The notes beneath the pieces are model-generated. The model ran no database searches. It was given only the letters and a program-made list of their open reading frames with translations, and was not told the DNA's origin. Shown here piece by piece: positions 31,880-43,109 of a stretch of DNA of 64,000 nt. Positions within the stretch are counted from its first letter, which is position 1; each line of letters starts with the position of its first letter. A program made the translations under genes and the position numbers. Source of the stretch: Caulobacter vibrioides OR37 (GTDB taxonomy: Bacteria > Pseudomonadota > Alphaproteobacteria > Caulobacterales > Caulobacteraceae); assembly GCF_000372645.1 (NCBI RefSeq), contig NZ_APMP01000007.1:1-64000 (forward strand), written 5' to 3'.

Positions 31880-33718
31880 TCAGGCCCTTCCGGTCACCCC
31901 GGCGACGGCGCGGGCGATCTGGTGGACGTTGTAGGGTTTGCGCACGATCGGGGCGTCGAAGCCCATCGGGGCGGCCTTGTCGGCGTATCCGGTCGCGAAG
32001 ACGAAGGGCCGACCAAGACCGCGCAGGATCTCGGCGACCGGAGCCACGGACTGGCCGTTGAGATCAGCGTCCAGCACGGCGACGTCGAAATCCCGATCGA
32101 CCATCGACAGCGCTTCGCCCAGCTCGGCCGCGCAGCCCACCACCTCGACGCCCGCGTCCTCGAGGCCGGCCTCGAGTTCAAGGGCCAGCAACAGGGAATC
32201 CTCGACGATCAGCACCTTCAGGCCGACGATCGCGCCAGGACGGATCGTCTCGTCGGCGGCGACCACGGTCTCGACGATGCGTTCTGGCGCGGCGCTGACC
32301 GGCTCCTCGGGCGGGCCGTCGGCCAGGGCGCTGGCCGCGCCCTGGATCATGGCCGTGACGCCCGCCGACCGGTAGGTGATCCGCGCCGAACCGCCCAGTT
32401 CGCGCCCGACCACATCCTCGATCAGGGTGGCGCCGAAGCCCTTGGTCGTCGGCGCCGTGGCCGGCGGGCCGCCGGTCTCCAGCCACTCCAGGGCGAACCC
32501 GCCCTCGGAGGTGCGCCGCCAAACCACCTCGACCTTGCCGTTCTCGGTCGAAAGCGAGCCATAGCGGACGGCGTTGACCGCCAGTTCGTGCAGGGCCAGG
32601 GACAGGGCGGCGGCGGCGCGGGGCGTCAGGAACAGTTCGGGTCCGTCCCAGCGGGTCTGGGTGGGCGCCAGGCCGCCCAACTCGGCCGCCGCGATCCGGG
32701 CGAGGGTCGCGCCCCGCCAGCGGGCGGCGCTGAGCAGATCGTGGGCCGAACTCATCGACTTCAGCCGGGCGGCGAAGGTCTTCAGGAACACGTCCAGCGA
32801 GGCCGACTTGCGCGCCGACTGGGCCGCCACCGACTGGACGACGGTCAGCAGGTTCTTAATTCGGTGATCCAGCTCGGCGACCAGGCTTTCGCGCTGCGCC
32901 TCCTGGCCCTTGCGCTCGGTGATGTCCTGGACGATCCCGATCAGATACGTCGGCTCGCCTTGGGCGTCGCGGAGCAGGACCCCCGAATCGCGGTTCCAGA
33001 TTTCCTCGCCGTTATCCAGTGGACGGCGATATTCCACGTCGTAGCGGTCGGCCTCCCGCAGTTGGGCGGTCACCGATTCGCGCACCCGCTCCCGATCGTC
33101 GGGATGCAGGTGGCGATACAGGGTCTGGCCCTTCTCGGCCGGAAGCTCGCCGGGCGCGATATTGGTGATCTTGGCCAGCCGGGGGCTGACCCGGACGACA
33201 TCGCGCCGGAAGTCCCACTCGAACTCGCCCAGGCTAGCGGCGGCGATCGCCAGGTTCAGACGCTCGGTCTGCAGCATTCGCGCCGTGTCGGGACGGCTCG
33301 CTCGCAGGGCCTCCGCCGCCATATGCGCCAGATCCTCCAGGGCCTGGCGATCCTCCTCGCTGGCTGGACCATGCAAGCCGGGCCCCTCGACCACCATCGC
33401 GCCTAGCACACGGCCTTGGTCGTCGCGGATCGGCGACGCAAGATCCGCGGGCGCCCCCGTGACCACCACACGGTCGGCCAAGTCTCCCCGCCGGGGCGCC
33501 TCGGGGCTAGCGTAGCCGATGGAGGCCACGCGCCAGACGCGGCGTTCATCGACCAGCGCGATGGCCGCCTTCGGCGCGTCGAACAGCCTCGCGGCCAAGC
33601 GGACCAGGCGCATGAAACGGGGATCGTCGACTGGACCGTCCAGCACGCCCAGGGCCCTCACGGCGCCGAGCCGGTCGGCTTCCTGACGATCGTCGCTGAC
33701 GATAGGGGCGTCCTGCAT
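31880..33718 (-). CDS. Hybrid HWE histidine kinase (GAF-PAS-kinase-receiver)
   Basis: A 612-residue cytoplasmic sensor. An N-terminal GAF-like domain (about residues 20-140) is followed by a PAS domain with PAC (about 160-275). The HWE core has H-box VAELDHRIKNLL (His285), N-box HELAVNAVRYGSL and W-x-E motif LEWLETGG. The C-terminal receiver domain (about residues 498-610) has acceptor Asp550 in VAVLDADLNG and the conserved Lys in IVRKPYN. No output domain or partner gene is adjacent. It lies divergent from a sigma-T-controlled pair next to the stress locus, so PhyR is a plausible downstream target. This is inferred. Confidence 0.9.
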   Translation of the reverse strand: MQDAPIVSDDRQEADRLGAVRALGVLDGPVDDPRFMRLVRLAARLFDAPKAAIALVDERRVWRVASIGYASPEAPRRGDLADRVVVTGAPADLASPIRDDQGRVLGAMVVEGPGLHGPASEEDRQALEDLAHMAAEALRASRPDTARMLQTERLNLAIAAASLGEFEWDFRRDVVRVSPRLAKITNIAPGELPAEKGQTLYRHLHPDDRERVRESVTAQLREADRYDVEYRRPLDNGEEIWNRDSGVLLRDAQGEPTYLIGIVQDITERKGQEAQRESLVAELDHRIKNLLTVVQSVAAQSARKSASLDVFLKTFAARLKSMSSAHDLLSAARWRGATLARIAAAELGGLAPTQTRWDGPELFLTPRAAAALSLALHELAVNAVRYGSLSTENGKVEVVWRRTSEGGFALEWLETGGPPATAPTTKGFGATLIEDVVGRELGGSARITYRSAGVTAMIQGAASALADGPPEEPVSAAPERIVETVVAADETIRPGAIVGLKVLIVEDSLLLALELEAGLEDAGVEVVGCAAELGEALSMVDRDFDVAVLDADLNGQSVAPVAEILRGLGRPFVFATGYADKAAPMGFDAPIVRKPYNVHQIARAVAGVTGRA

Positions 33719-33821: not shown

Positions 33822-33847
33822 GGAACCGCGACGCTAAGCTCGGCGTT
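33822..33847 (+). promoter_or_regulatory. Sigma-T promoter of the YqjD/YqjE-like pair
   Basis: GGAAC (33822-33826) and CGTT (33844-33847) with a 17-nt spacer match the Caulobacter sigma-T consensus. The start codon of the first gene is 58 nt downstream. Confidence 0.8.
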
Positions 33848-33904
33848 GACGGGGCGCCTCGTGAAAGCGTCCCCGGTCGGTCGCGTCGCGAACAGGAGAT
33901 CATC

Positions 33905-34255
33905 ATGCCCGCCAATTCGCTGAATGCCGCCGCCAACGAAGCCGACAAGGCCAAGGACGCCGCCCAGGACGCGGTCGATCACGCCGAACGCAGCTTCGCC
34001 GAAGCCGCGAACGCGGCGCGCGTGTCGCTGACCGAGGCCGCCAAGCGCGTCGAGAAGTCGGTGGCGGAAGGCTTCGAAACCCTGCGCGCCCAAAGCCGCA
34101 CCTATACCGACACCGCCGGTCAGCAGCTGGAAGACGCCCAGCGCTACGTTTCCGAGCGCGTGCGCGAGCGTCCGATCACCGCCACCCTGGCCGGTCTGGG
34201 CGTGGGCGTGCTGATCGGTCTTCTGATCGCCGGCGGCCGCAGCAACAACCGGTGA
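33905..34255 (+). CDS. DUF883 (YqjD/ElaB-like) membrane-anchored protein
   Basis: A 116-residue protein with a long amphipathic, alanine-rich helical region (residues 5-90) and a C-terminal transmembrane helix (GLGVGVLIGLLIAGG) preceded by the DUF883-type motif VRERPITATLAG. In E. coli relatives are inner-membrane proteins induced in stationary phase, and YqjD and ElaB bind ribosomes. Here a sigma-T promoter and an overlapping second gene make it a stress-induced pair. The exact role in Caulobacter is unknown. Confidence 0.82.
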   Translation: MPANSLNAAANEADKAKDAAQDAVDHAERSFAEAANAARVSLTEAAKRVEKSVAEGFETLRAQSRTYTDTAGQQLEDAQRYVSERVRERPITATLAGLGVGVLIGLLIAGGRSNNR

Positions 34256-34650
34256 TTTTCGAAAAGACTCTCATGACGCTGGCGGCGGCCGCGGCCATCG
34301 CCGCCGCCGCCGCGGTCGGCGTCGTTTCCGCCGCCTTCGCGGTCTATGCCGTGCTGGTCCCCCTGGTCACGCCGGCGGGCGCGGCGGCCATCGTCGCCGC
34401 CATCGCCGCGCTGATCGTGGCGATCGCCGGCATGGTCGCCGCCCGCAAGGTCGAGGGCCATCGCCACCAACAGCAGGCGCCGCCGCAAGCTGGCTTCGAC
34501 ATGACCGGCCGCATCGTGGAAATCGTCCGCGATCGCCCGCTGATGTCGATCGGTCTGGGTCTGGCCGCCGGGGTCTTCGCCCTGAAGAACCCGACTCTCA
34601 CCGCCACCCTGGCCAAGGCCTTCCTGGACCCCAAGCCGCCGCAACGCTGA
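34252..34650 (+). CDS. Two-helix membrane protein, YqjE/holin-like
   Basis: A 132-residue protein with two closely spaced transmembrane helices at the N-terminus (about residues 8-35 and 40-62), both nearly pure Ala/Val/Ile, and a third weak hydrophobic patch (MSIGLGLAAGVFAL). The segment IVRDRPLMSIGLGLAAG mirrors the C-terminal motif of its upstream neighbour. Gene order matches YqjD-YqjE of E. coli. The start is GTG 34252, overlapping the upstream stop (GTGA), with ATG 34273 as an alternative. Function is unknown. Confidence 0.75.
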   Translation: MIFEKTLMTLAAAAAIAAAAAVGVVSAAFAVYAVLVPLVTPAGAAAIVAAIAALIVAIAGMVAARKVEGHRHQQQAPPQAGFDMTGRIVEIVRDRPLMSIGLGLAAGVFALKNPTLTATLAKAFLDPKPPQR

Positions 34651-34666
34651 GGTCCGCCAACCACCC

Positions 34667-34693
34667 GAACGCCGCCGACATTCGGCGGCGTTC
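34667..34693 (+). terminator. Hairpin after the YqjD/YqjE-like pair
   Basis: A perfect 12-bp stem GAACGCCGCCGA / TCGGCGGCGTTC with a CAT loop lies 17 nt after the stop. No T-run follows, so it may be a weak terminator or an mRNA stabiliser. Confidence 0.55.
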
Positions 34694-34852
34694 GCTCGTC
34701 GAAGCCCCGGAAACCCCAGATTTCCTAGGGTATTTATCGCTAAAAGTTGAGCGCGACGGGCGTCGGAACGACTTACGCTTTTCACCGGCGCCCTCTAGAT
34801 GCCTTTCCGCGCGTCCCGTCTTCCGTGGGGGACGCCTTCCCATGGAGCGAAC

Positions 34853-35473
34853 ATGACGTACAAGCTGCCCGACCTGCCCTACGCCTATGACGCGCTGGAG
34901 CCGACGATCTCCGCCAACACCCTGCGCTTCCACCACGACAAGCACCACGCCGCCTATGTCACGGCCCTGAACGGCCTGCTCAACGGCGACGACAAGGGTT
35001 CGCTGGAAGCGGTGATCAAGGACGCGGGTCCGGGCAAGGTATTCAACAACGCCGCCCAGGCCTGGAACCACGCCTTCTTCTGGGACGGCCTGTCGCCGAC
35101 CAAGACCGCGCCGGGCGCCGAGCTGGCCGCCGCGATCGAGCAGACCTTCGGCGGCCTGGACGGCCTGAAGGAAAAGTTCGTCGCCGAGGGTATCGGTCAC
35201 TTCGGCTCGGGCTGGGTGTGGCTGGTCTCGGACGCCTCGGGCGCCCTGAAGATCATCTCGACCCACGACGCCGACAGCCCCGTCACCCACGGCGTGACCG
35301 CCCTGGCGGTCGCCGACGTCTGGGAGCACGCCTACTATCTGGACTACCAGAACCTGCGGAAGGGCTTCCTGGAAGCCGTGTTCGACAACCTGATCAACTG
35401 GACCCTCGCGGACAGCCAGTACGCCGCCGCCAAGTCGGGCGCGCAAGGCTGGGCCTATCCGGCCCCGGAATAG
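34853..35473 (+). CDS. sodB: Iron superoxide dismutase
   Basis: A 206-residue Fe/Mn-family dismutase. Metal ligands are in [11 protein letters not shown] (His), NHAFFWDGL (His) and [11 protein letters not shown] (Asp and His). GLDGLKEKF and the FGSGWVWLV segment are characteristic. Fe specificity is suggested by [16 protein letters not shown], typical of SodB, but metal preference cannot be proven from sequence. ATG 34853 is preceded by GGAG at five bases. A GGAAC upstream (34757) lacks a matching -10, so sigma-T control is not supported. Confidence 0.95.
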
Positions 35474-35489
35474 GCGGCTGGGCTTCTCC

Positions 35490-35514
35490 GGAACGCACCG
35501 GAATCGGGCGCGTT
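35490..35514 (+). promoter_or_regulatory. Sigma-T promoter of the DUF1328 gene
   Basis: GGAAC (35490-35494) and CGTT (35511-35514) with a 16-nt spacer match sigma-T. The ATG of the small membrane protein is 73 nt downstream of the -10. Confidence 0.8.
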
Positions 35515-35586
35515 GATCTGAAGCGAGGCCGCCGGGCCCCGTTCCAGACAACCGCCCGAGGATCCGGGCCAAGACCGGAGACGCCG

Positions 35587-35760
35587 ATGCTGAATTGGGC
35601 CGTAACCTTCCTGGTGATCGCGTTGATCGCCGCCGTGCTGGGCTTCACCGGCATCGCCGGCGCGGCGATCGGGATCGCCAAGATCCTGTTCTACGTCTTC
35701 CTGATCCTGTTCCTGGTGTCGCTGGTCAGCCACCTGGTGCGGGGACGCGGAGCCTCGTAG
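35587..35760 (+). CDS. DUF1328 (YtjA-type) small membrane protein
   Basis: A 57-residue protein of two transmembrane helices ([21 protein letters not shown] and [19 protein letters not shown]) separated by the glycine-alanine turn [10 protein letters not shown]. The pattern [18 protein letters not shown] is the DUF1328 signature. Family members are hydrophobic peptides of unknown function, often stress-induced in alphaproteobacteria. The sigma-T promoter upstream agrees with that. The stop is followed by a strong bidirectional terminator. Confidence 0.88.
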
Positions 35761-35825: not shown

Positions 35826-36611
35826 TCAGCGCCGATCGCACGCCCAGGTGCGCCAGACTTCAAAACGGCCGCGCTCGTAGGCCAGCGCCGTCACGCGCAC
35901 GCAGCCGGGCTCGATGTCGATCAGGTTGAAGCCCGGCGCCGCGCCGCGCTCACGCAGCGACAGCGTTCCAGAGCCGACGGCCTGGGTCTTGCCATCGCCA
36001 AACGGGATGGCGGTGACGAACGGCAGGTGGATATGGCCCGACAGGATCAGGTCCGCGCCGGCCTCGACGAAGCGGTTGGCCGCGTCGACGCCGCCCCGGA
36101 CCCGGGCCGTCATCGGACCGCCCAGGATCTCCATCAGCGGATGGTGACAGACCACCACGCGCAGGTCGCCGACCGGCGCGGCGCGCAGGGCCTCGGTCAC
36201 GCGGCGGATTTGGCCGCGCGACACCGCGCCCTTCGACCAGTTCCAGCGGGCCTGGGCCGCGCGGGCGGTGTTCAGCGACGCGAGGGTTATTCCGGGCGCG
36301 CGCCAAACCGCGCCATCCGGCTCGCCGAAGCGGTCCGAAAACCGGCGCCAGGGCCGAGTGAAGCGTTCCAGAAGCTCGCCCGGCCCGACAAAGGGCGTGT
36401 CGTGATTTCCCGGGACCACCAGCCTGGGCCGGGGCAGGCGCGCCAGCCAAGCGGCGGCGGCGTCGAATTCGGCGGTCTTGCCGTCCAGCGTCAGGTCCCC
36501 CGCCACGATGACAAGATCCGGCGCCGCCCCGGCGATGCGGTCGATGGCGGCCTCGACCGCCTCGCGGTTCTCGCCGCCGAAATGGATATCCGAGACCTGG
36601 ACCAGCCTCAT
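35826..36611 (-). CDS. Calcineurin-like metallophosphoesterase
   Basis: A 261-residue binuclear metallophosphatase. The five family motifs are present: VQVSDIHFGG, VIVAGDLTLDG, VVPGNHD, VVVCHHPL and ILSGHIHLP. The domain resembles cyclic-nucleotide or lipid-headgroup phosphodiesterases (CpdA/UDP-diacylglucosamine hydrolase type), but the substrate cannot be named. It has no signal peptide. ATG 36611 overlaps the stop of the upstream lipid-kinase gene by four bases, so the two are translationally coupled and probably act in one pathway. Confidence 0.88.
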   Translation of the reverse strand: MRLVQVSDIHFGGENREAVEAAIDRIAGAAPDLVIVAGDLTLDGKTAEFDAAAAWLARLPRPRLVVPGNHDTPFVGPGELLERFTRPWRRFSDRFGEPDGAVWRAPGITLASLNTARAAQARWNWSKGAVSRGQIRRVTEALRAAPVGDLRVVVCHHPLMEILGGPMTARVRGGVDAANRFVEAGADLILSGHIHLPFVTAIPFGDGKTQAVGSGTLSLRERGAAPGFNLIDIEPGCVRVTALAYERGRFEVWRTWACDRR

Positions 36612-37474
36612 CCGGCCGCCTCGATCGCCGGCGGGACCAGGGCGCGGAAGGCCTTGGGACGGAAGCGGATCTGCGCCTCCGAACCCAGGCGGACCGGCTC
36701 GCCGTCCAGGATCGCCGGGATGCGGCCACGGGCCCAGACACGGCCCGCTCGGCACAGCCCCATGCTGACCGAAGGGTCCTGGCGCCACTGACCGCGCGCG
36801 GCCGCCAGCCCCAGCCGGAAGACATCCAACGCGCTGGACGGGTCCAGAGCGGCGGCCTCGAGCGCGCGGGCGTCGGAATCCAACGCGGTGGAAACCAGCG
36901 GGCACATCAGGGTCAGGGCTTCCGCCCGGTCCTTGGGTCGACTGTCCAGGCAAAAGCGCAAACGGCTGGAAAAGGCGCGCCGGAAGGCGCGGCGCGCCCG
37001 GGCCAGCGCCAGGTCAAGACGTCCCCGCCGCGCGGCCTCGCGCGCGTCGGCCCATAGGGCCGGGCTGCCCAGGATGGCGGCGACGAAGAACAGCCGTCCG
37101 TCGATCTCGCCGCCCGAAACGAATTGGGCCTCGCCACGCTCCAGGCAGGCGGCCATGGCCTCCGGCCACGACCCTTGGCCATAGAGGGCATGGGGCAGCA
37201 TGTTCATGGTGCCGCCGGGCAAGGGCGCGATCAGCGGACCCTCGGGGCCGGCCAGCTCGGCCGCCGCGCGCGCCGTGCCGTCGCCGGCCAGCACCAGCAC
37301 CGCGTCGGGAGCGGCGTCGATCACCCGCTTCAGACACGCGACCAGGTCCTCGGGGTCCGGCGCGTGGACCACGCCCGAAACCCCATGTTCGGCCAGCAAC
37401 CGTTCGGCGAGCTCCGGGGCGTCGGGCCCCACCGAGCCCGAGGCGATATTGGCGACGACCTCGATCCGGCGCAC
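36608..37474 (-). CDS. Diacylglycerol-kinase-family lipid kinase
   Basis: A 288-residue protein with the DAGK catalytic fold. The nucleotide-binding motif VLVLAGDGTARAAAEL (GGDGT class) and PLPGGTMNMLPHAL (the PLGTxN-type loop) are clear. It may phosphorylate diacylglycerol, sphingoid or related lipids, or be the YegS/LCB5 type. The GTG start at 37474 has a strong GGAGGG ribosome site about seven bases upstream. Upstream in-frame sequence is not conserved-looking. A sigma-T promoter lies 33 nt before the start. It forms a two-gene operon with the metallophosphoesterase. Confidence 0.85.
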   Translation of the reverse strand: MRRIEVVANIASGSVGPDAPELAERLLAEHGVSGVVHAPDPEDLVACLKRVIDAAPDAVLVLAGDGTARAAAELAGPEGPLIAPLPGGTMNMLPHALYGQGSWPEAMAACLERGEAQFVSGGEIDGRLFFVAAILGSPALWADAREAARRGRLDLALARARRAFRRAFSSRLRFCLDSRPKDRAEALTLMCPLVSTALDSDARALEAAALDPSSALDVFRLGLAAARGQWRQDPSVSMGLCRAGRVWARGRIPAILDGEPVRLGSEAQIRFRPKAFRALVPPAIEAAG

Positions 37475-37506
37475 GCGGGCTCCCTCCGATAGAAATTCGG
37501 CAAGGC

Positions 37507-37532
37507 AACGGCTCGCCGCGCCCCATGGTTCC
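37507..37532 (-). promoter_or_regulatory. Sigma-T promoter of the lipid kinase/phosphoesterase operon
   Basis: On the minus strand GGAAC (37532-37528) and CGTT (37510-37507) are separated by 17 nt. The predicted transcription start is about 25 nt before the GTG at 37474. Confidence 0.75.
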
Positions 37533-38534: not shown

Positions 38535-38555
38535 AGCTGAAACGCCACGAAGAAA

Positions 38556-38716
38556 GGCGGGCCGGAGACCGGTCCGCCTGAGTTCGCATCAACAAAGGGG
38601 GGGTGCGAAGGCGGCAGGCCAGCTATCGCCAGCCTCAAGTCGGGGGGGCGTCGCCGCCTTCGCATCCATAAAACGATGTCGCGCTCGGCGGGTTCCCGCC
38701 CGGCGCGAGTTTTTTT
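38556..38716 (+). ncRNA. Candidate structured RNA with Rho-independent terminator
   Basis: There is no reading frame of note here. Three stems follow one another. GGCGGGCCGG-AGA-CCGGTCCGCC lies at 38556-38578. A 12-bp perfect stem joins TGCGAAGGCGGC (38604-38615) and GCCGCCTTCGCA (38653-38664) around a 37-nt loop that ends in a G7 run. A GC-rich terminator hairpin at 38680-38709 is followed by seven T residues. It may be a small RNA or the structured 3' end of the OmpA-like mRNA. No sigma-T motif lies directly upstream. Confidence 0.4.
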
Positions 38717-39353: not shown

Positions 39354-40166
39354 TTAAGCGGCCTTGCGGGTCCGGCGCGGGTGGAAGAACAGCGCCTGGC
39401 CGATCGCGGCCTTCACGGTTTCCGGCTGGAACGGCTTGGTGATCAGGAAGGTTGGTTCCGGACGCTCGCCGGTCAGGAGGCGCTCGGGGAAGGCGGTGAT
39501 GAAGATCACCGGCACGTCCATCCGGCCCAGGATATCCTTGACCGCGTCGATGCCCGACGAGCCGTCGGCCAGCTGGATGTCGGCGAGGACCAGGCCCGGG
39601 GTTCGGCGCGCGACCGCGTCGACGGCCTCGCCTCGCGTGGCGGCGATGTCGGTGACGTCATGACCCAGTTCGCGGACGAGAGCCTCGATGTCGGCGGCGA
39701 TGACCGGCTCGTCCTCGATGATCAGCACGTCGGTGGCCAGCTCGGCGTCGATCTCGGCCTGGGCGTCGGCGATCAGGCGTTCGACCTCGCCGAAGTCGCA
39801 GTCCAGGATCTGGGCCGCTTCGGTCGGCGTGAAGCCCTCGAGCGCGGTCAGCAGGAAGGCCTGGCGCGAGCGCGGCGCGATGCGCAGCAGGCGCTGGGCG
39901 GCGTCATCGCCCGCGCTGGACCCGGTGGAGACGCCATCGTCGCGACGGGCCTCCAGCTGCGCGCCGGAGCTGAGCCAGATGGCGTGAAACACCCGGTACA
40001 GCGCCACGCGCGGCGACAGGTCATCGTCGAGCGACCGGTCGCCCGCCGCCAAGGCTTCGAGGGCCACGCGGACATAGTGATCGCCGGTGCTTTGGTCGCC
40101 GGTCAGGGCGCGGGCGTAGCGACGAATATAGGGCAGATGCGGCGCCAGCCGAGCAAGAAGACTCAT
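39354..40166 (-). CDS. phyR: General stress response regulator PhyR
   Basis: A 270-residue anti-anti-sigma factor. Residues 1-140 form an ECF-sigma-like domain (sigma2/sigma4 mimic, with GFTPTEAAQILDCDFGEVE in the sigma4-like part). Residues 146-265 form a receiver domain with acidic pocket IIEDEP, acceptor Asp196 in LVLADIQLADGSSG and conserved Lys in FLITKPFQPE. When phosphorylated, PhyR binds NepR and frees SigT. ATG 40166 has GGGAGGGG just upstream. Its own sigma-T promoter at 40203-40228 gives positive feedback. Confidence 0.97.
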   Translation of the reverse strand: MSLLARLAPHLPYIRRYARALTGDQSTGDHYVRVALEALAAGDRSLDDDLSPRVALYRVFHAIWLSSGAQLEARRDDGVSTGSSAGDDAAQRLLRIAPRSRQAFLLTALEGFTPTEAAQILDCDFGEVERLIADAQAEIDAELATDVLIIEDEPVIAADIEALVRELGHDVTDIAATRGEAVDAVARRTPGLVLADIQLADGSSGIDAVKDILGRMDVPVIFITAFPERLLTGERPEPTFLITKPFQPETVKAAIGQALFFHPRRTRKAA

Positions 40167-40202
40167 GACCCCTCCCGATGCGGTGTCTTCGAAAACAAGC
40201 CT

Positions 40203-40228
40203 AACGAACGGCAAAGCTGCGCCGTTCC
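40203..40228 (-). promoter_or_regulatory. Sigma-T promoter of phyR
   Basis: On the minus strand GGAAC (40228-40224) and CGTT (40206-40203) are separated by 17 nt, 37 nt upstream of the phyR start codon. It matches the known autoregulation of this locus in Caulobacter. Confidence 0.85.
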
Positions 40229-40305
40229 GTCGAAGCGAGATAACGTTCCCTTTCACGACAGGTTCCGCTGTTCGCGGATTTTTGACATCCTATGCCCAAG
40301 CTTTG

Positions 40306-40400: not shown

Positions 40401-40586
40401 ATGATCGAACACGTACCCATGGAAGACAAACGCAAGAGCGCCGCGGCGCTGGACGAAGCCCGTCTGCGCCAGCAGGCGATCGGGGTGAAGTTGCGCCAGA
40501 TGTTCGACGAGGTCGTCAACGAGCCGGTGCCCGACGAATTTCTGGACATCCTCCGCAAGGCCGAGCCTCCGGCGGGGGGACGTTGA
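40401..40586 (+). CDS. nepR: Anti-sigma factor NepR
   Basis: A 61-residue helical protein that sequesters SigT until phospho-PhyR competes. The NepR signature is visible: IGVKLRQMFDEVVNEPVPDEFLDIL. Three ATGs are in frame: 40374, 40401 and 40419. ATG 40401 is chosen on length, but 40374 would also fit the predicted transcript. The gene ends three bases before the sigT ATG, so the anti-sigma and sigma factor are made together. Confidence 0.92.
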   Translation: MIEHVPMEDKRKSAAALDEARLRQQAIGVKLRQMFDEVVNEPVPDEFLDILRKAEPPAGGR

Positions 40587-40588
40587 GC

Positions 40589-41194
40589 ATGAACGAAGGC
40601 AAACCCGGCCGTTCCGCGCCGGACGCGACCCGCGACGCCGCCTTCAAGCGGGAGCTGGTCACGCTGATCCCGCATCTCCGCGCTTTCGCCCGCACCTTGA
40701 CCGGCGATCCGACCGCCGCCGACGACCTCGCCCAGGACGCGATGATGAAGGCGTGGGACGCCCGCGCCTCGTTCCAGATGGGCACCAACATGAAGGCCTG
40801 GACCTTCATGATCCTGCGTAACCAGTTCTATTCCGAAAAGCGCCGCAGCTGGCGGCAAAGCCAGCTGGACCAGGAAGCCGCCGAGCGGACCCTGGTGGCG
40901 GTCGACGACCCCGAGGCGCCGGTGGCGCTGGACGAGCTGCGCCTGGGTCTGGCCATGCTGCCCGCCGAACAGCGCGAAGCCTTGATCCTGGTCGGCGCGG
41001 GCGGCTTCGCCTACGAGGAAGCGGCCGACATCTGCGGCTGCGCGGTCGGTACGGTGAAGAGCCGGGTCAGCCGCGCCCGTCGCGCCTTGCAGGCCATCCT
41101 CGAAGCGGGGACCTATGATCGGGACGGCGGCGCGGCCGGCGACGCCATGCGCGCGATCCTGGCCGACGCGGAGCGACTGAGCTCCCTGCGGTGA
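40589..41194 (+). CDS. sigT: ECF sigma factor SigT (EcfG family)
   Basis: A 201-residue general stress sigma factor. Region 2 includes DPTAADDLAQDAMMKAWDAR and MKAWTFMILRNQFYSEKRR. Region 4 includes LPAEQREALILVGAGGFAYE and a helix-turn-helix CGCAVGTVKSRVSRARR. ATG 40589 has GGGGGGA upstream, and its stop overlaps phyK by GTGA. It would read the GGAAC/CGTT promoters found in this window. Confidence 0.96.
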   Translation: MNEGKPGRSAPDATRDAAFKRELVTLIPHLRAFARTLTGDPTAADDLAQDAMMKAWDARASFQMGTNMKAWTFMILRNQFYSEKRRSWRQSQLDQEAAERTLVAVDDPEAPVALDELRLGLAMLPAEQREALILVGAGGFAYEEAADICGCAVGTVKSRVSRARRALQAILEAGTYDRDGGAAGDAMRAILADAERLSSLR

Positions 41195-42885
41195 ACGCCC
41201 TGGCCGGCCGCGCCACGCGCGCCATCACGTCCATTCGCGTTCGCCTGGCCGTCGCCCTGAGCGTGGCCCTGCTGCCCGTGCTGGTGCTCGGCGTCATGCA
41301 ATCGATCTTCGCCTTTCGGGCCGAAGCCGATTCCCGACGTCAGAGCCTGGAACTGGCCGCGGGCCGCAGCGCGGCGATCGCCCGCGCGCGCATCGAGGCC
41401 GCCGGCGTGCTGCTGCAGACCCTGGGCCCGGGCTCGGTGGGCCTGGAGTGCGCCCAGCGCCTGGCCGACGTGCGCGCCCGACTGCCCGGCTACGCCAACC
41501 TGATCCGCTTCGACGCCCATGGGCGCGTGGCCTGCGCGGCCGCCACCACGCCGCTGGACGTGCAGCGCGGCGCTCGTCCCTGGTTCCAGGCCCTGCGCGG
41601 CGGCCAGGCGATGGTCGTGGCCAGCGCGCCAGGCGCGGCCTATGCCAACGAACCGGCCGTGTTGGCCGCTATCCGCGCCGGCCCCCCGGACCAGTTCGAG
41701 GGCGCGATGGCCGCGGTGCTCACCCTGCAAGGCCTCAAGCTGGAAACCGCCAACCGCTTCCTGCCGCAGGGGGCCGAGGTCGCCCTGGTCGATTCGCACG
41801 ACCAAATCTTCGCCGCCACCCAGCCCCAAGCCTTCGGCGCGCCGCCGCGCGGCTGGCGCGACGTCGCGGTCAAGCGAGGCGCGGCGATCTGGAACGGTCC
41901 CGACGCCCAGGGCCGCCCCCGCAGCTATTCGGTCGCGCCGCTGGTCAACAACGACGTCTTCGTCCTGCTGTCGGCGCCAGCGCCGGGCCTGCTCTCCTGG
42001 GCTTGGATCAATCCGATATCACGCCTGCTGCTGCCGCTGCTGGCGTTCGTGCTGGGCCTGGCCGCCGTCTGGTACGCGGCCGAGCGCGGGGTGATCCGCT
42101 GGATTGTCTATCTGCAGCGCGTGGCGGCCATCTATGCCCGGGGCCGCTTCACCGTGCGTCCGCTGCAGGCCGAACGCGCTCCGCCCGAGATCCGCGAGCT
42201 GGCCGCCACCCTGGACGCCATGGCCGGCGCCATCGTCGCCCGCGACGCCTCGCTGATGGACAGCCTGGCCGAGAAGGACGCGCTGATGCGCGAGATCCAT
42301 CACCGGGTGAAGAACAATCTCCAGATCATCACCTCGCTGCTGAACATGCAGCAGCGGGCTCTGGCCGATCCGGCCGCCAAGGCGGCGATGAACGACACCC
42401 GTCAGCGGATCACCGCCCTGGCCCAGATCTACCGCGCCCTCTACCAAGGCCCGGATCTGAAGCGGGTGGACCTGCGGCCGTTCCTCGAGGAGCTGACCGC
42501 TCAGCTGCTGGCCAACGACATGACGTCGACCGCCCTGGTCCGCACCGAGGTGCACGCCGACCCGCTGGTCATCGACCCCGACCGCCTGGCGCCGATCGCC
42601 CTCTTCGCGGTCGAAGCGATCACCAACGCCCAAAAACACGCGTTCGGCCCCCAGGGCGGCACGCTGGAGGTCGGCTTCCACGTGCGCGGAGAAGAGGCCG
42701 AACTGTCGATCGGCGACGACGGCCCCGGCGCGGCCGAAAGTCTGGGCGGCGGCGTGGGCCGCACGCTGATGACCGCTTTCGCCCGCCAGCTGCGCGGCAA
42801 GGTGACGTTCGAGACCCGCGACCCACGCGGTCTGACCGTCCGTCTCGTCTTCCCCACGCCCCAGGTCATGGCGCCCGGAACCTAG
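41191..42885 (+). CDS. phyK: PhyK sensor histidine kinase
   Basis: A 564-residue membrane kinase for PhyR. The first transmembrane helix (VALSVALLPVLVLGV, about residues 21-35) is followed by a periplasmic sensor region of about 230 residues, then a second helix (LLLPLLAFVLGLAAVWYA) and a HAMP-like linker. The HisKA_2 box LMREIHHRVKNNLQ puts the acceptor at His371. The ATPase domain has EAITNAQKHAF and IGDDGPGA. The GTG start overlaps the sigT stop by four bases. Position next to phyR-nepR-sigT matches the Caulobacter arrangement. Confidence 0.95.
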   Translation: MNALAGRATRAITSIRVRLAVALSVALLPVLVLGVMQSIFAFRAEADSRRQSLELAAGRSAAIARARIEAAGVLLQTLGPGSVGLECAQRLADVRARLPGYANLIRFDAHGRVACAAATTPLDVQRGARPWFQALRGGQAMVVASAPGAAYANEPAVLAAIRAGPPDQFEGAMAAVLTLQGLKLETANRFLPQGAEVALVDSHDQIFAATQPQAFGAPPRGWRDVAVKRGAAIWNGPDAQGRPRSYSVAPLVNNDVFVLLSAPAPGLLSWAWINPISRLLLPLLAFVLGLAAVWYAAERGVIRWIVYLQRVAAIYARGRFTVRPLQAERAPPEIRELAATLDAMAGAIVARDASLMDSLAEKDALMREIHHRVKNNLQIITSLLNMQQRALADPAAKAAMNDTRQRITALAQIYRALYQGPDLKRVDLRPFLEELTAQLLANDMTSTALVRTEVHADPLVIDPDRLAPIALFAVEAITNAQKHAFGPQGGTLEVGFHVRGEEAELSIGDDGPGAAESLGGGVGRTLMTAFARQLRGKVTFETRDPRGLTVRLVFPTPQVMAPGT

Positions 42886-42901
42886 CTTCGCCGGTGACGT
42901 T
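42877..42901 (+). promoter_or_regulatory. Sigma-T promoter of the entericidin-like gene
   Basis: GGAAC (42877-42881) and CGTT (42898-42901) with a 16-nt spacer. The -35 lies inside the last codons of phyK. The ATG of the small lipoprotein gene is 65 nt beyond the -10. Confidence 0.78.
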
Positions 42902-42965: not shown

Positions 42966-43109
42966 ATGCGCAAACTCGTGATCCTCGCCGCCCTCGCCGC
43001 CAGCCTGTCGGTGGCCGCCTGCAACACCGTTGAGGGCGCGGGCAAGGATGTGTCGTCGGCCGGCCGCGCCGTCACCGACACGGCCAAGGACGTCAAGAAC
43101 AATAACTAG
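42966..43109 (+). CDS. Entericidin-like small lipoprotein
   Basis: A 47-residue lipoprotein. The signal peptide LVILAALAASLSVAAC ends in a good lipobox. The mature 27 residues (NTVEGAGKDVSSAGRAVTDT...) match the entericidin A/B family (NT..G.G.D....G). In E. coli entericidin B is a stress-sigma-induced membrane toxin. The sigma-T promoter here fits that pattern of regulation. No antidote-like partner gene is adjacent. Confidence 0.88.
   Translation: MRKLVILAALAASLSVAACNTVEGAGKDVSSAGRAVTDTAKDVKNNN

Follow-up and report, generated by a model that had tools for sequence, protein, structure and literature searches.

On the minus strand of the 64-kb window (the whole stretch of DNA under analysis), a gene for a lipid kinase of the DAGK superfamily is followed by one for a calcineurin-like metallophosphoesterase (Table 1). 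Both families, named earlier in a sequence-only reading of this DNA, are recovered by Pfam, the kinase with 38.5 bits for DAGK_cat (cut-off 23.6) and the phosphoesterase with 68.7 bits for Metallophos (cut-off 21.5); the other features of that reading, a GTG start behind a ribosome site, an ATGA shared by the two genes and a sigT-type promoter, were likewise all located. The range that it gave, 36608-37532, covers the kinase and its promoter, with the phosphoesterase gene just outside. The promoter, GGAACCATGGGGCGCGGCGAGCCGTT, has a spacer of 17 nt and lies at -58 from the kinase start codon. This arrangement points to a single, translationally coupled operon behind one sigT-type promoter, from which sigT would transcribe both genes.

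Table 1. The kinase-phosphoesterase operon and the stress-response genes around it (positions in the window).
Feature	Position	Strand	Basis and remarks
DAGK-superfamily lipid kinase, 288 aa	36608-37474	minus	GTG start; Pfam PF00781
Calcineurin-like metallophosphoesterase, 261 aa	35826-36611	minus	ATG start; Pfam PF00149
ATGA stop/start overlap (kinase TGA, phosphoesterase ATG)	36608-36611	minus	sequence
GGAGG ribosome site of the kinase	37483-37487	minus	8-nt spacer to GTG; sequence
sigT/EcfG-type promoter, GGAAC-N17-CGTT	37507-37532	minus	motif match; motif kept upstream of orthologous kinases
GsrN-type sRNA (Rfam RF01529 CC3552)	38555-38661	minus	86.5 bits; between kinase locus and phyR
phyR	39354-40256	minus	Pfam PhyR_sigma2, PhyR_sigma-like, Response_reg
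sigT/ecfG (start approximate)	40586-41194	plus	ORF; homologues beside phyR in relatives
phyK-like HWE sensor kinase	41191-42885	plus	ORF and gene order

The operon sits inside the phyR-nepR-sigT-phyK/gsrN locus, and its surroundings are the core locus of the general stress response (GSR), with the same gene order as CC_3474-CC_3477 of C. crescentus (PMC3073932). The window contains 12 matches to GGAAC-N15-18-CGTT against 1.5 expected; 10 of them fall at 33.8-42.9 kb, around phyR and sigT, and the GsrN-type sRNA has a sigT motif of its own (38696-38672). An entericidin-like lipoprotein ORF at about 42966-43109 (+), directly after the sigT motif at 42877-42901, is likely to be the counterpart of C. 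crescentus CC_3473. A stress-type run at 33822-35760 (+) encodes a DUF883-like protein, a small membrane protein, an Fe/Mn superoxide dismutase and a short membrane peptide; sigT motifs occur in it at positions 33822 and 35490, and two genes of a comparable kind stand after the pair at locus L042. Near the GSR locus there is also a second HWE histidine kinase (GAF-PAS-HWE-receiver; 31880-33718, minus strand), distinct from the phyK-like one.

The pairing of kinase and phosphoesterase is not due to chance. The kinase is present in 36 of 37 genomes of the genus, that of the window included, the only exception being a 70%-complete assembly, and in every one of these 36 the phosphoesterase gene is its immediate neighbour. 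The two are adjacent in nearly all genomes of the order, other families included; at two loci (L036 and L038) the order within the pair is swapped with adjacency kept, and several relatives share the 4-nt overlap. Conservation of the operon in relatives, on which the sequence-only reading had let its case depend, is thus strongly borne out within the genus and in other families. In 32 of these same-genus genomes, and likewise in eight genomes from other families of the order, the pair moreover shares a contig with phyR, at a distance of about 2-8 kb.

Conservation extends to the promoter. The exact EcfG motif, counted 25-130 bp upstream of the orthologous kinase, occurs at 25 of 29 same-genus loci (1.3 expected), at 45 of 70 loci of named Caulobacteraceae of the Caulobacter/Phenylobacterium type (1.9 expected), at both loci from another genus of Caulobacteraceae, at 5 of 16 loci from other families (0.17 expected) and at 6 of 26 from other orders (0.14 expected), counts to which close relatives contribute non-independent loci. 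Two of the six motif-bearing loci from other orders (L077 and L078, in genomes G183 and G232) belong to canonical GTAND kinases without a phosphoesterase. Permuted motifs gave a mean of at most 0.3 matches per group, and the higher counts of a few single permutations arise because related loci share sequence. Among close relatives the promoter ends are kept while the spacer sequence varies, and the operon has, at a conserved position, the GGAAC-N16/17-CGTT promoter expected of a sigT/EcfG regulon member. The exact motif is absent upstream of the kinase in many Phenylobacterium and at most loci outside the Caulobacteraceae, and one C. vibrioides locus (L094) has a weak form (CGAAC).

The kinase combines its domain score with the two-domain DgkB/SphK fold and the nucleotide motif and DGE expected of the DAGK superfamily (PF00781). 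Its motifs read AGDGT, PGGTMN and a C-terminal DGE; across 49 homologues GDG, GGT-x-N and DGE do not vary, and the first Gly of GGDG(T) is Ala in the Caulobacter kinases of the pair. The structure model (pLDDT 91.8) matches DgkB with Z 23.4 over 268 residues at 3.1 Å and SphK1 with Z 22.2, against at most 16.1 for NAD kinases; the absence of other folds from these match lists is not evidence. A Pfam NAD_kinase score of 26.5 bits, barely above the cut-off of 25.5, raises the question whether the enzyme resembles NAD kinases and acts on a soluble substrate, a reading made highly improbable by the higher DAGK_cat score, by the gap in fold similarity (Z 22-23 to DgkB and SphK1) and by the conserved C-terminal DGE; NAD kinase identity was rejected on fold match and motif.

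Within the superfamily, DgkB of Staphylococcus aureus (a soluble diacylglycerol kinase; PDB 2qv7) has the same full-length fold, GDG motif and C-terminal DGE, but identity is 18%, and its GTVNDFGRAL is GTMNMLPHAL in the window kinase, with both Asp and Arg replaced. Unlike DgkB, the window kinase has a phosphoesterase partner and a sigT-type promoter. The GTxND Asp of the DgkB/YegS type is found in none of 145 motif-bearing, phosphoesterase-partnered kinases, whose loci are not all independent, and the window kinase reaches neither TIGR00147 (YegS/Rv2252/BmrU lipid kinases; 14.7 bits, cut-off 118.65) nor NF040993 (MamU lipid kinase; 48.6 bits, cut-off 400). Since this Asp is replaced, the chemistry or the substrate of the kinase may differ; the ceramide kinase CpgB, judged by the copy in the same genome (GKTNVLA), also lacks it, so the change need not mean lost activity. 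The genome holds only two DAGK_cat genes and no DgkA. That the kinase replaces DgkA as diacylglycerol kinase was considered and not adopted: DgkA is rare in kinase-bearing genomes (1/42 vs 51/295, p about 0.01), but the comparison is confounded and no proof, because the DgkA carriers sampled are mostly small genomes.

The phosphoesterase has intact metal-ligand motifs (D8, H10, D39, N69/H70, H156/H157, H193 and H195), which are invariant in 50 homologues and correspond to the D-x-H, GD, GNHD, HH and GHxH signature of PF00149. GpdQ (Z 24.6) and Rv0805 (Z 23.6) come closest to its structure model (pLDDT 87.9), narrowly followed by purple acid phosphatases, so that diesterase and monoesterase activity are both possible. 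These two class III phosphodiesterases, GpdQ being a glycerophosphodiesterase, are the closest solved relatives by sequence profile and fold, at about 19-20% identity; the likeness to GpdQ (19%) is one of fold. The calcineurin-like superfamily also takes in nucleases and cyclic-nucleotide enzymes. Different chemistry for the pair has to be weighed here, with undecaprenol or another lipid alcohol as substrate, or a head-group intermediate as in YegS-like phosphatidylglycerol, CDP-DAG or UDP-diacylglucosamine chemistry. The GTxN without Asp in all readable phosphoesterase-partnered kinases sets these apart as a subfamily away from DgkB and YegS, a DedA-PAP2 protein is among the partners and the phosphoesterase matches LpxG; that match, at 19.9 bits, is however weak and far under the cut-off of 350, none of the named substrates is directly supported, and we regard such a substrate as unlikely.

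A DAGK-type kinase with an adjoining calcineurin-like phosphoesterase occurs twice in this genome. The second DAGK_cat gene is cpgB-like, and its neighbours are spt, cpgC and a divergent phosphoesterase; in a C. vibrioides genome (L164) the order spt, cpgC, cpgB, cpgA, phosphoesterase is that of CC_1162-CC_1158 (PMC11324152). As a separate observation, the window's own genome lacks cpgA (CDP-alcohol transferase) between cpgC, cpgB and the phosphoesterase (L083:6923-9793), unlike L164. CpgB is a proven ceramide kinase that also accepts diacylglycerol in vitro (PMC10331486), and mutants of CC_1158 have intermediate phenotypes, which suggested that another gene can partly substitute for it (PMC11324152). 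The stress operon might accordingly be read as a stress copy of CpgB and the CC_1158-type enzyme, a reading to which the parallel architecture, the diacylglycerol activity of CpgB and the CC_1158 phenotypes lend some weight. The profile scores are nonetheless far apart: the stress-kinase profile gives the cpgB-like kinase 35 bits against about 370 for stress kinases, and the stress-phosphoesterase profile gives the cpg phosphoesterase 81 bits against about 334. The cpg genes belong to other subfamilies, are divergently arranged in the Spt cluster and have no EcfG motif in this genome, and the stress kinase, at its separate locus, has neither the close sequence relationship to CpgB nor a position in the Spt/cpg cluster. 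Spt is enriched among genomes with a stress-type phosphoesterase (9/21, p about 0.001), yet a true Spt is missing from the other 12 of the 21; because about half of the pair-bearing genomes thus lack it, a function in sphingolipids alone was rejected as a general explanation. Judged by sequence relationship and position, the pair is not the ceramide-kinase system, and the stress-copy reading seems improbable. The published hint of a CC_1158 substitute nevertheless makes the window phosphoesterase a candidate for that backup role in ceramide diphosphoglycerate synthesis.

The operon is not confined to the order. Across 337 alphaproteobacterial genomes, the best phosphoesterase homologues (above 175 bits) adjoin a kinase in about 20 of 24 cases, and members of the Rhodobacterales and Burkholderiales, Mesorhizobium, Azonexus and Legionella carry the operon as well. 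Named plasmids carry it in kinase-to-phosphoesterase order in Qingshengfaniella, Tritonibacter, Rhodovulum, Mesorhizobium, Paraburkholderia, Azonexus and Legionella, with the 4-nt overlap in the first six of these (MAFF303099 in the case of Mesorhizobium). An EcfG motif lies at -54 and -55 from the kinase in the Qingshengfaniella and Rhodovulum plasmid copies, at -50 from a PAP2 phosphatase gene in that of Mesorhizobium MAFF303099 and at about -250 in that of Tritonibacter; no motif is similarly placed in the Beta- and Gammaproteobacteria examined. The module therefore extends beyond the GSR; judging by these motifs, it seems to have come under EcfG control in some alphaproteobacteria. A PAP2 gene joins the operon in genomes G383/G157, Mesorhizobium and Paraburkholderia, once, in Mesorhizobium, as a DedA-PAP2 fusion.

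These partners bear on the earlier proposal of a lipid cycle, taken here as opposed action in which the kinase would form a lipid phosphate for removal by the phosphoesterase (or PAP2), setting the level of a lipid signal under stress. The strict coupling of the two genes, down to translational overlap, and the presence of a PAP2 lipid phosphatase in some operons are consistent with such a cycle. Sequential use suits the operon better, however, because both enzymes come from one promoter and are made together; no lipid-signal receptor is known here, and PAP2 already supplies a phosphatase in some operons. An opposed cycle therefore strikes us as doubtful.

Other arrangements were noted in passing. 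Six genomes of other orders (G094, G202, G282, G151, G232 and G183) have a kinase that lacks a phosphoesterase partner and lies at most about 3 kb from a PhyR-type gene, those of G232 and G183 being of the canonical GTAND type; in G094 (L165), G202 (L166) and, by coordinates, G282, a GTMN-type kinase stands beside a sensor kinase, phyR and a sigma factor. On Mesorhizobium pMLb, two EcfG motifs, one per strand, lie in the interval that separates the PAP2-kinase-phosphoesterase operon from a divergent ATPase/sensor kinase pair (L189:1612-1781). Plasmid pPNP1 of Pseudomonas sp. JS425 brings together a phosphoesterase, an acylglycerol kinase, a CDP-alcohol phosphatidyltransferase and lptG, an assembly that resembles the Caulobacter sphingolipid cluster.

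The two enzymes probably share a step in the maintenance of membrane lipids during stress, because the pair, and often the stress promoter with it, has been kept across many related bacteria. Operon structure, promoter conservation, the wide retention of the pair, the folds and the conserved active-site residues are computed results; transcription by sigT, catalysis, a lipid substrate, a shared pathway and its direction, and a physiological role are inferred. In the proposed scheme, sigT (EcfG) would drive one operon for two soluble enzymes, the lipid kinase and the metal-dependent phosphoesterase; the latter would cleave a phosphoester in a (glycero)lipid or in its head-group intermediate, and re-phosphorylation of the lipid alcohol, for instance diacylglycerol to phosphatidic acid, would fall to the kinase, so that lipids freed by envelope damage or remodelling would re-enter phospholipid synthesis under stress. 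We take this as the most likely reading and give it an even chance: a salvage or turnover module for lipid phosphate, recruited to the GSR, in which both enzymes act on the same membrane-lipid pool. More tentatively, the kinase-phosphoesterase operon, with or without PAP2, could possibly represent an unrecognised, class-wide lipid-phosphate arm of the GSR, perhaps turning over a stress-signal lipid phosphate or a head-group intermediate of a new kind.

The alphaproteobacterial GSR has many uncharacterised output genes, and membrane-lipid turnover is not among the GSR functions named in the literature examined. In the table of the C. crescentus sigT regulon under carbon starvation, neither a lipid kinase nor a phosphoesterase is named (PMC3073932). 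The nearest published precedent is SGRAN_0919 of Sphingopyxis granuli, a GSR-dependent gene annotated 'sphingosine kinase' and assigned to the EcfG regulon (PMC7083833); it and the window kinase are both annotated lipid kinases linked to EcfG, a likeness by description only, and the account of SGRAN_0919 does not mention a phosphoesterase partner. The earlier statement that no such pair is described for the GSR accordingly stands for the pair, of which no description was found in the open-licence literature, but not for a GSR lipid-kinase gene as such, which had already been reported. Neither protein family is new; no description of the subfamily, of the conserved pairing or of its EcfG-type promoter was found in that literature. 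With the pair beside the phyR/sigT switch across families and behind a stress-type promoter, a link between the GSR and lipid metabolism becomes directly testable in a model organism.
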